In this document: positions 3,557 through 52,106 of the stretch, piece by piece
How positions within the stretch are numbered: position 1 is the stretch's first letter
How the letters are laid out: each line of letters opens with the position of its first letter
Assembly (NCBI RefSeq): GCF_900105205.1
Contig: NZ_FNSQ01000005.1
Location: forward strand, 2,418,001-2,482,000
Length of the DNA stretch: 64,000 bases
Direction: 5' to 3'
From: Microbacterium hydrocarbonoxydans
GTDB taxonomy: Bacteria > Actinomycetota > Actinomycetes > Actinomycetales > Microbacteriaceae
The notes under the pieces: model-generated
Databases searched by the model: none
What the model was told of the DNA's origin: nothing
Seen by the model: only the letters and a program-made list of their open reading frames with translations
Program-made: the position numbers and the translations under genes

Positions 3557-3598
3557 CGGATGCCCCGGACCGTCGCGTCCGGGGCATCCGCTCTTTTT
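3557..3598 (+). terminator. Intrinsic terminator after pspA
   Basis: A perfect 14-base stem (3557-3570 with 3577-3590) with a 6-base loop CGTCGC, followed by CTCTTTTT. This is the most classical terminator in the window. Its stem starts CGGATGCCCCG, the same sequence as the hairpin after metY. Confidence 0.92.
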
Positions 3599-14856: not shown

Positions 14857-15780
14857 TCATCCGGTCGACTGCACCGTCTGCACACTCCCTCTCGGCTCTC
14901 CTGCGAGCACGAGCCCGACCCCGATCCCGCACAGGACGAAACCGGCGAGCGTGACCACGGTCATCGGCTCGCCGAGCAGCAGACCGCCGGCCAGCGACGT
15001 CGCCGGCGCCATCAGGAAGAGGAGGGCCTGCAGCGCGGTGATTCCGACTCGGCGCAGCAGCCACCAGTACAGGCCGTAGGCGATCACCGTCGGGAAGACT
15101 GCGGTCAACGCCACCGCGAGCCAGAACGAGCCGGATGCCGGCGGCGCCAGCGTCCCCGTCGCCGCGGCGATCACGAGCAGCAGCACCGCCGTGACGGTCA
15201 CGTGAATGGTCAGAGTCACGAGCACACCGGTTCTCACCGGCGACCTCCGCTGCACGAACGTGCCGAGTATCAGACACGCCATCGCGATGACGGGCAGTGC
15301 GTACGCCAGCACCGGAGCATCCGACGAGCCGAACTGCGAACGCACTACGAGAAGGACCCCGACCGCGCCGACGCCGAGGCCCATCCACTGCGCGCCACGC
15401 ACCCGCAGCCCGAGGATGGGGCCGACCAGCACCGCCACCACGAGCGGCTGGACGGCATCGATCAGGGCCACGGTGCCGGTCGCGATGCCGGCGGCCACCG
15501 CGCCGTACACCGCCACGCAGTAGCCGAACTGCGCGAACACGCCGATCGCCGCCTGCACCCGCAGCTCGTGGCCAGAGACGCCCTTCGCTGCTCCCGACAC
15601 GAGCGTGACCGCGATCAGCAGCCCCGCGAGCGGCACGAATCTCCAGACGAGCAGGGTGAGCGCAGAGACGTCGACCGTCGCGAAGGCCGGAATGATGAAC
15701 CCCGAGCTCCACGAGACGATGAACGTTGCTGCGGCAGCCACCGTCACGGCGGCCTGAAGTACACCGATCTGTTTACTCAT
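14857..15780 (-). CDS. DMT-superfamily (EamA) exporter
   Basis: 307 residues from the ATG at 15778-15780. About ten hydrophobic helices make two EamA repeats; the first opens FIVSWSSGFIIPAFA and the second FVQRRSPVRTG..ALTAVFPTVIAYGLYW. The LLWRFVPLAG and PLVVAVLVGPILG segments are typical. The family exports metabolites, amino acids or drugs. It diverges from a TetR gene, and the 34 bases between the two start codons are one palindrome, so TetR control of this exporter is very likely. Stop and SDR start are 62 bases apart. Confidence 0.88.
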   Translation of the reverse strand: MSKQIGVLQAAVTVAAAATFIVSWSSGFIIPAFATVDVSALTLLVWRFVPLAGLLIAVTLVSGAAKGVSGHELRVQAAIGVFAQFGYCVAVYGAVAAGIATGTVALIDAVQPLVVAVLVGPILGLRVRGAQWMGLGVGAVGVLLVVRSQFGSSDAPVLAYALPVIAMACLILGTFVQRRSPVRTGVLVTLTIHVTVTAVLLLVIAAATGTLAPPASGSFWLAVALTAVFPTVIAYGLYWWLLRRVGITALQALLFLMAPATSLAGGLLLGEPMTVVTLAGFVLCGIGVGLVLAGEPRGSVQTVQSTG

Positions 15781-15817
15781 GACCTCGACTATACAGACTG
15801 GTATAGTCGAGGTCATG
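15778..15817. promoter_or_regulatory. TetR operator and divergent leaderless promoter palindrome
   Basis: A perfect 17-base inverted repeat (CATGACCTCGACTATAC at 15778-15794, its complement at 15801-15817) around a 6-base centre AGACTG. The arms include the start codons of both divergent genes. Each arm carries a TATAGT hexamer (15802-15807 forward; 15788-15793 reverse) ending 7 bases before the start codon it would serve. The site therefore seems to be operator and both promoters at once. Confidence 0.85.
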
Positions 15818-16405
15818 CCCCACCCCGTTCCGGAACTCGCGCCCCTCACTCCCGGTGGGCGGCGGGTACTCGACGCCGCGTCGCAGCTGTTCTACGAGCG
15901 AGGCATCCATGCCGTGGGCGTCGATACGATCGCCGAGGCGGCCGGCGTCACCAAGAAGACGCTCTACGACCGATTCGGATCGAAGGAGGCGCTCGTCGTC
16001 GCGTATCTGCAGCACCGCGATGCGCGGTGGCGTGAGCACGTGGCCCAGCAGCTCGCACTCGTCCCCGAGCCCGGGATCGATCGTGTGCTCGCGATCTTCG
16101 ACGCCGCGATCAGCTGGTCGGATGCGAACAGCCCCAAGGGATGCAGCGCGATCAACGCCCGCGCCGAGATCGCCGACGGCACGGACGACCACCCGGTGTT
16201 TCCCGAGGTCTCCCGCCAGAAACTCTGGCTACTCGGCGTCTTCGAGGAGCTCTGCACCGAGGCGGGGCTTCGGGATCCTCGCGCCTCCGCGCAGGCGATG
16301 ATGCTGCTCTACGAGGGCGCGATCGTCACGGTCGGGATGACCACGTTCGCAGAGCCCTTCGCTGTCGCGCGCCGCTGGGCCGCCGCGCTGCTCGCCCAGG
16401 CCTGA
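15815..16405 (+). CDS. TetR/AcrR family transcriptional regulator
   Basis: 196 residues from the ATG at 15815. The N-terminal helix-turn-helix is plain: RRVLDAASQLFYERGIHAVGV, then TIAEAAGVTKKTLYDRFGSKEALV (residues 35-60). The C-terminal half is the ligand/dimer domain, with a CSAINARAEIAD segment. It probably represses itself and the divergent DMT exporter through the palindrome that separates them. An upstream in-frame ATG at 15779 lies inside the opposite arm and would add 12 residues encoded by the operator; it is less likely. Confidence 0.9.
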   Translation: MPHPVPELAPLTPGGRRVLDAASQLFYERGIHAVGVDTIAEAAGVTKKTLYDRFGSKEALVVAYLQHRDARWREHVAQQLALVPEPGIDRVLAIFDAAISWSDANSPKGCSAINARAEIADGTDDHPVFPEVSRQKLWLLGVFEELCTEAGLRDPRASAQAMMLLYEGAIVTVGMTTFAEPFAVARRWAAALLAQA

Positions 16406-17894: not shown

Positions 17895-17926
17895 CGGATG
17901 CCCCGGGCTTCGGCTCGGGGCATCCG
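17895..17926 (+). terminator. Hairpin terminator after metY
   Basis: A perfect 11-base stem CGGATGCCCCG/CGGGGCATCCG with a 10-base loop GGCTTCGGCT and no T run after it. It begins 23 bases after the metY stop. The stem sequence is also found in the pspA terminator. Confidence 0.65.
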
Positions 17927-52068: not shown

Positions 52069-52106
52069 CCAGAACGGCCCGGCCCCTCGGGGCCGGGCCG
52101 TTCTGG
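52069..52106. terminator. Terminator between the coiled-coil gene and hpf
   Basis: An 18-base GC-rich stem (52069-52086 with 52089-52106, starting CCAGAACGGCCC). The central two bases make it an essentially continuous palindrome. It separates convergent genes. Confidence 0.85.

Follow-up and report, generated by a model that had tools for sequence, protein, structure and literature searches.

Introduction

Two divergently transcribed genes of Microbacterium hydrocarbonoxydans, one for a TetR-family regulator and one for a membrane protein, are separated by a perfect inverted repeat that takes in the start codons of both. The question raised by this locus is what holds the two sides of the repeat in symmetry: whether the whole repeat serves regulation, or whether only a part of it does and the rest has some other origin. 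We address it using the window, a 64,000-nt stretch of NCBI RefSeq contig NZ_FNSQ01000005.1 (positions 2,418,001 to 2,482,000, forward strand), whose own numbering is used throughout unless another contig is named, and the corresponding loci of related bacteria.

The overall explanation that we put forward, with a probability of roughly 75%, is a self-regulated efflux switch with leaderless mRNAs, in which the arms of the repeat are copied by template switching. Leaderless mRNAs would let a divergent repressor/exporter switch be compressed until a 20-bp operator doubles as both −10 boxes, and a second operator concealed in exporter codons would add to the compactness of the switch.

The gene pair and its inverted repeat

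The genes, the repeat and its parts are as follows.
14857..15780, minus strand: EamA (drug/metabolite transporter) family membrane protein, 307 aa from the ATG at 15780
15815..16405, plus strand: TetR-family regulator, 196 aa, matching profile PF00440
15778..15794, unstranded: left arm of the repeat, opening with the exporter start codon (CAT on the plus strand)
15801..15817, unstranded: right arm of the repeat, closing with the TetR start codon ATG
15788..15807, unstranded: O1, conserved operator-like core ACTATAC-N6-GTATAGT, 20 bp, with half-sites that are the −10 boxes of both genes
15758..15777, unstranded: O2, second operator-like site AGTACACCGATCTGTTTACT, in exporter codons 2–8, its centre 30 bp from the O1 centre
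15781..15787, unstranded: left outer arm GACCTCG, 7 nt from O1 to the exporter ATG, sequence not conserved
15808..15814, unstranded: right outer arm CGAGGTC, 7 nt from O1 to the TetR ATG, fully complementary to the left outer arm

A divergent exporter/TetR pair had been proposed in the first-pass annotation, and profile scores bear it out. TetR_N (PF00440) scores 64.2 bits in the regulator against a cut-off of 24 (E 9e-18), and EamA (PF00892) scores 66.4 bits over two stretches of the membrane protein (E 4e-18). The solved chain closest to the regulator is 3g7r (E 4e-20). The EamA protein, which scores under the curated cut-off of the NCBIfam EamA subfamilies, is probably an exporter, and is so called in what follows.

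The arms of the repeat, 17 nt each (15778-15794 and 15801-15817), are 100% complementary and stand 6 nt apart, as had been noticed from the start. The left arm opens with the reverse complement of the exporter ATG, and the right arm ends on the TetR ATG; the ATG-to-ATG gap is 34 nt, and the repeat spans all of it together with both start codons. The first-pass description of the intergenic space as one palindrome is right in that the gap is filled and both ATGs are included, and wrong at the 6-nt centre, AGACTG, which is not itself palindromic. Folded as a single strand, the repeat forms a perfect 17-bp hairpin of −18.1 kcal/mol (z −8.25). With the base composition of the window, one expects 0.0009 repeats that are perfect over arms of 17 nt or more and have loops of 0–20 nt; 2 are observed. 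The 17-nt repeat is far above chance, yet the window has a longer perfect repeat.

That longer repeat, at 52069-52106, is the window's longest perfect one among those with arms of 14 nt or more and loops up to 20 nt. It is GC-rich, has 18-nt arms and a 2-nt loop, lies shortly after a stop codon, and looks like a terminator stem. Two further stem-loops, at 3557-3590 and 17895-17926, are near-identical, with arms like CGGATGCCCCGG and CCGGGGCATCCG; the pair is possibly a recurrent terminator hairpin of the genus.

Loci in related genomes

Relatives were collected by protein and by DNA sequence, as follows.

Protein searches. A search of 198 genus genomes gave 30 loci, the window's own counted, with a TetR 70–100% identical; the next-best TetR in these genomes was 48% identical. 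The O1 expression matched in 29 of the 30, and the remaining one, L021, has one half-site changed. From a protein scan of named genomes the best 80 loci were retained, from Microbacterium, Oerskovia, Cryobacterium, Frondihabitans, Plantibacter, Clavibacter, Cellulomonas, Arthrobacter and others. Loose expressions found both O1-like and O2-like sites in 74 of these best 80 protein-found loci, across the Micrococcales, the order of Microbacterium, Oerskovia and Actinotalea alike.

Pattern searches. A DNA pattern joining O2 and O1 matched in 56 of 366 genus genomes. A looser form matched in 22 of 398 family genomes, from 9 of 85 genera, with two of the 22 in the window's genus. The reversed-control patterns had no match among the matches listed for genus and family genomes.

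Samples. The 84 parsed loci are made up of 59 genus loci and 25 others; 27 protein-found loci outside the 84 (L106 included) were used for start distance alone. Because a DNA pattern with part of O2 and O1 fixed was the first source of 29 of the 59 genus loci, codons and distances were counted again on the 68 loci that were first or also protein-found. The exporter frame is open for at least 250 codons in 82 of the 84, the EamA domain being scored in the window protein only; L053 and L118, with a stop before codon 250, were both retained. The exporter start is unsure in 2 of the 84, because the codon at that position is ATA or ATT.

Tree and null model. The tree was built by a quick method, with SH-aLRT support, from tetR and exporter DNA with the arms and first codons left out. 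In the null simulation the two arms evolve independently along this tree.

By sequence comparison, these relatives divide the repeat into three layers: the O1 core, a putative two-sided leaderless layout, and outer 7-nt arms that are not conserved.

Two operator-like sites

O1 has the form ASTATAC-N6-GTATANT across nearly all of the 84 loci, and the spacing between the centres of O1 and O2 is 29 or 30 bp in 81 of them. Each is an inverted-repeat operator candidate near the regulator's own gene, and both are conserved as putative TetR sites.

O2 had been missed in the first-pass annotation. It lies in exporter codons 2–8 and is spelled with codons that the gene otherwise avoids. In the 68 protein-found loci, codon 2 is AGT in 55 (elsewhere in the gene, 2.7% of Ser codons), codon 3 is AAA in 54 and AAG in none (elsewhere, AAA is 1 of 24 Lys codons), codon 6 is GGT in 67 (elsewhere, 10.4% of Gly codons) and codon 7 is ATA in 39 (elsewhere, 1.7% of Ile codons). 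Codon 3 is ATA (Ile) in 9 of the 84 loci, in 7 of them after GGT (Gly), with a shift of the O2 half-site toward that of O1.

The circuit looks local, since O1 and O2 are the only zero-mismatch sites of the motif in the 3.6-Mb genome. A wider regulon was not found with the motif at up to two mismatches, the genome giving 39 matches against 107 for the reversed control.

Two one-mismatch sites, at 16103 and 3510638 of contig C5 (L179, G000:C5:16103; L182, G000:C5:3510638), lie within a transposition-type gene, integrase-like and ATPase-like by eye. L179 and L182 are two copies near opposite ends of the contig; the 1500 bases preceding the motif are identical, and the copies differ from 26 bases into the motif onward.

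Putative promoters and the leaderless layout

The promoter elements predicted at the locus are as follows.
15802..15807, plus strand: −10 box of the TetR gene, extended TGG-TATAGT, 7 nt before the ATG
15788..15793, minus strand: −10 box TATAGT of the exporter gene, 7 nt before the ATG
15779..15784, plus strand: predicted −35-like ATGACC of the TetR promoter, 17-nt spacer, overlapping the exporter start codon
15811..15816, minus strand: predicted −35-like ATGACC of the exporter promoter, 17-nt spacer, overlapping the TetR start codon

A TATAGT hexamer does stand 7 nt before each ATG, and the mirror-image promoters that had been proposed on this basis were recovered by a promoter scan of 15600-16000. 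It returned exactly two promoter-like sites, a mirror pair ATGACC-17-TATAGT, each agreeing with the consensus at 9 of 12 positions; shuffles (n=50) gave a mean of 0.0 sites. Given this mirror pair, every start codon overlaps the opposite gene's −35-like hexamer. Beyond the ATG these ATGACC hexamers have no conservation in relatives.

The distances between −10 box and start are better kept. From −10 to the tetR start there are 6–7 nt in 66 of the 68 protein-found loci, and the count for the exporter start is likewise 66 of 68. A TANNNT lies 6–7 nt before the in-frame tetR start in 26 of the 27 further protein-found loci, compared with 0 of 186 in-gene ATG/GTG codons taken as a control. In L138 the −10-to-start distance is 9 nt. 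The tetR start is some 12–14 nt farther from O1 than usual in L021, L024, L092, L099, L145 and L149, and in these a new TANNNT is found 6 nt before the moved start, operator and −10 box being separated. The base at −1 is C for the tetR start in 65 of the 68 protein-found loci, and for the exporter start in only 41 of 84. A leadered start is possible at some loci, because GAGG-like letters occur in the leaders of 8 of 84 tetR and 18 of 84 exporter genes.

For Mycobacterium tuberculosis it is reported that 26% of the genes with a primary transcription start site are leaderless, that purine starts are preferred, and that C is the preferred base at −1 (PMC3898074). From spacing and sequence we infer the transcript starts of both genes here: both mRNAs are most probably leaderless, starting at the A of the ATG. 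The leaderless layout that the first-pass annotation suggested for both genes would extend beyond the window to the loci just counted.

Variation of the outer arms

Relatives with the same gene pair do not keep the full 17-base symmetry, a check that the first-pass annotation had recommended. The outer arms are fully complementary over at least 6 nt in 5 of the 84 loci, and on this count the extended palindrome was rejected as a conserved operator. Conservation is limited to the inner 20 bp (O1) and the −10-to-ATG distances and does not extend to the outer 7 bases of each arm. The five matching arm pairs all differ: GACCTCG in the window, GCTCCCG in L053, GGGAATG in L059, GGGATCG in L073 and GTCTCG in L006.

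The arms of a locus nevertheless match each other more often than arms drawn from different loci. When right arms were shuffled among the 84 loci, 205.7 (sd 8.8) matches were expected and 237 are seen (3/5000), and 0.24 perfect loci were expected and 5 are seen (0/5000). The excess is confined to the 27 loci with a core ending in TATAGT (97 vs 66.3, 0/5000); by the same shuffling the other 57 loci have no excess of arm matches (140 vs 140.8). In the protein-found set, the 18 symmetric loci have 73 matches against 51.6 (0/5000), and no excess was found in the other 50 (118 vs 120.5).

Simulation along the tree was set against the same loci. Where the core is fully self-complementary (23 loci), 83 of 138 positions are complementary, against 52.2 (sd 7.4) simulated (0/1000), and the 61 remaining loci have no excess complementarity (141 vs 137.6 simulated). 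The signal comes mainly from the AGACTG clade of 10 Microbacterium loci, with 30 of 40 matches at positions 3–6 against 11.8 simulated, and 6 of 10 loci perfect over these positions against 0.07 simulated (0/2000). The 13 other symmetric-core loci have 20 matches where 15.2 are expected (236/2000), and three loci with a symmetric core and TTTTGC arms (L009, L040, L041) match at 0 of 6 positions each. By sequence comparison, the case for arm covariation is firm within one clade; for the other symmetric loci it is suggestive, and its generality is unproven. CATG stands at both ends of the repeat in all 10 AGACTG symmetric-core loci and in 40 of the 84 overall. This apparent concerted change of the outer arms among relatives is absent from the first-pass annotation.

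Two comparisons were considered as single copying events and are not used as proof. L067 against L019 fits partly, with 2 of 3 right-side changes toward the complement; L068/L069 against L014 is ambiguous, similar letters being already present in other relatives. Spacer inversion, which would be a second trace of template switching, was not seen in the 84 loci. In L140 and L141 of Actinotalea the O1 centre CGATCT is the reverse complement of the AGATCG of L032, L135 and L137, a possible spacer inversion that is also explicable by binding, because O2 shares those letters.

Proposed mechanism

We infer TetR binding, a ligand and a copying mechanism from these features, and would assemble them in the following way. 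A TetR dimer on O1, together with O2 30 bp away, would shut both promoters: the half-sites of O1 being both −10 boxes, TetR on O1 would cover the two at once, and O2 would lie over the first codons of the exporter gene, just downstream of its promoter. Ligand on TetR would free both genes, and the exporter would expel the ligand or a related compound. It is, in our view, very likely that the locus is a TetR-controlled switch repressing both genes. Of the first-pass idea that TetR would cover promoters and starts by means of the full palindrome, the operator-like core over both −10 boxes appears to stand, and the 17-base repeat as the regulatory unit does not. Leaderless starts on both sides would explain how two promoters, two start codons and an operator fit into 40 bp.

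For the outer arms, we read complementarity in the AGACTG clade as arm copying, not operator function; the seven extra bases of each arm most likely stand outside the operator. The leading, unproven cause of the extended symmetry, to which we incline by a little over even odds, is template switching during replication (quasipalindrome correction). The self-complementary core would let a nascent strand fold back and use one arm as template for the other, out to the start codons, each event rewriting the −10-to-start stretch of one gene from that of the other. Such switching would require a self-complementary core, and copying would run outward and could end at CATG. Since CATG is its own reverse complement and stands at both ends, fold-back copying would re-enter in register, sparing the proteins and the operator. 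A more tentative extension, which we hold at slightly under even odds, is that the promoter ends of the two divergent genes are held as mirror images by mutation and not by selection, the operator being in itself a mutation hotspot through which both promoters evolve together; on this mutational reading the repeat would end at the start codons on account of the leaderless mRNAs.

Alternative explanations

The regulatory part of this account has two rivals. If the promoters lay elsewhere and the transcripts were leadered, the TATAGT boxes would merely be operator half-sites; TetR operators may contain TATA-like half-sites, and an in-frame upstream ATG for TetR is available at 15779. That ATG was rejected as the main start, having an in-frame counterpart in the other arm in just 9 of the 59 genus loci, and the leadered alternative is improbable given that the −10-to-start distance stays at 6–7 nt on both sides and that a new TANNNT is found 6 nt before the tetR start wherever the start has moved from O1. 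O2, for its part, might be no operator, its conservation following from protein reasons, and the peptide MSKQIG at the exporter N-terminus is indeed conserved in most loci. However, the synonymous choice is extreme and contrary to the gene's own usage, and Ile (ATA) at codon 3 in nine loci changes the peptide while it keeps or improves the DNA half-site, which leaves this view a very slim chance, the slightest of those considered here.

For the outer arms, arm copying competes with selection and with descent. The full 40-bp symmetry might be selected, as a longer operator or a DNA cruciform required by both genes, and in its favour are the perfect 17-bp hairpin (−18.1 kcal/mol, z −8.25) and the retention of complementarity despite sequence change, which selection on a stem would also give. 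We regard this as unlikely, though the strongest of the rivals and one that may hold within the AGACTG clade: symmetry looks unneeded in most relatives, because an excess of complementarity is absent from 61 of the 84 similarly arranged loci, and arm positions 3–6 vary freely, with 21–35 parsimony changes each. A stem in RNA is unlikely because leaderless mRNAs from these promoters would leave the outer arms untranscribed, and no RNA starting there would contain both arms. The arm symmetry of the AGACTG clade might instead be inherited identity or chance alone. The perfect-arm loci do lie mostly within one part of the tree, and when core symmetry and arm match were compared over independent pairs the result was not significant (9 pairs, about 3.2 for and 0.2 against, median p 0.25). 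Yet the perfect arms differ among loci (GACCTCG, GCTCCCG, GGGAATG, GGGATCG, GTCTCG), with as many as three kinds of Watson–Crick pair at a position, and simulation of independent arms along the tree never matches the symmetric-core sets (0/1000, 0/2000), so that inheritance or chance appears highly improbable as the sole cause. Arm copying by template switching remains our preferred reading of the outer arms.

Comparison with known systems

The operators of Tn10 tetR/tetA are about 30 bp apart centre to centre, both lie between the genes, and the Tn10 mRNAs are leadered. The present locus resembles Tn10 in its divergent TetR repressor and exporter, its overlapping promoters and its two operators, all of these being sequence features here. 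As described for Tn10, tetO1 shuts tetR and tetA, and tetO2 stops tetA and lowers tetR (PMC3037858, PMC11686294); three promoters are reported there (PMC3037858), unlike here. At the present locus, in contrast with Tn10, both −10 boxes fall within O1, O2 is part of a coding sequence, and the two genes, with a gap of 34 nt, seem to give leaderless mRNAs.

PecM is a protein of the EamA kind. As at the present locus, regulator and exporter genes are divergent in PecS/PecM (PMC6391409); PecS is a MarR regulator, and the regulator here, having a TetR_N domain instead, is not of that class. Another actinobacterial regulator divergent from its target, with intergenic inverted repeats, is CrtR with the crt operon of Corynebacterium glutamicum; crtR is reported as leaderless and the crtE transcript as having a leader of 114 nt (PMC5401885). 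CrtR is a MarR regulator, and the crt layout is leaderless on one side only, unlike the layout here. In Actinobacteria, leaderless genes are described as carrying TANNNT about 12 bp ahead of their start codons (PMC3160421). The genes here resemble them in a TANNNT near enough to the start for transcription to begin from it, and differ in that both divergent partners seem to be leaderless and have a single operator core in common.

Quasipalindrome correction, in which one arm is copied and an imperfect inverted repeat is perfected, is established in Escherichia coli (PMC7202029) and reported in yeast genes (PMC8604942), and template switching has been proposed for RNA genes and RNA stems (PMC8794818). 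The AGACTG clade is similar in that the arms stay complementary while their sequence changes (0/2000); it differs from the known cases in that copying would affect the start-codon ends of two divergent genes, on either side of a repressor operator. None of the titles and abstract openings listed in our searches of the PMC open library, subscription papers being mostly outside its scope, describes the arrangement.

The outer arms provide a natural series across dozens of species for separating arm copying from selection. They also call for caution, as complementary covariation, usually taken as selected structure, may here be a mutational footprint.

Operator-like motifs of TetR paralogs

Two TetR paralogs 44–48% identical to the window's TetR (L191, L192) have related operator-like motifs, TACACTGATCGGTGAAGTCA and TATACTGATCTGTGAAGTCA, upstream. 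Perfect inverted repeats with arms of at least 8 nt and loops of up to 12 nt were found in five of 18 paralog regions (L196, L198, L200, L203, L204), and among these five that of L198 alone reaches the TetR start. There, at a different TetR gene (G042:C6), a palindrome with 10-bp arms, ATAGGTAGAC/GTCTACCTAT, extends into the putative start codon.
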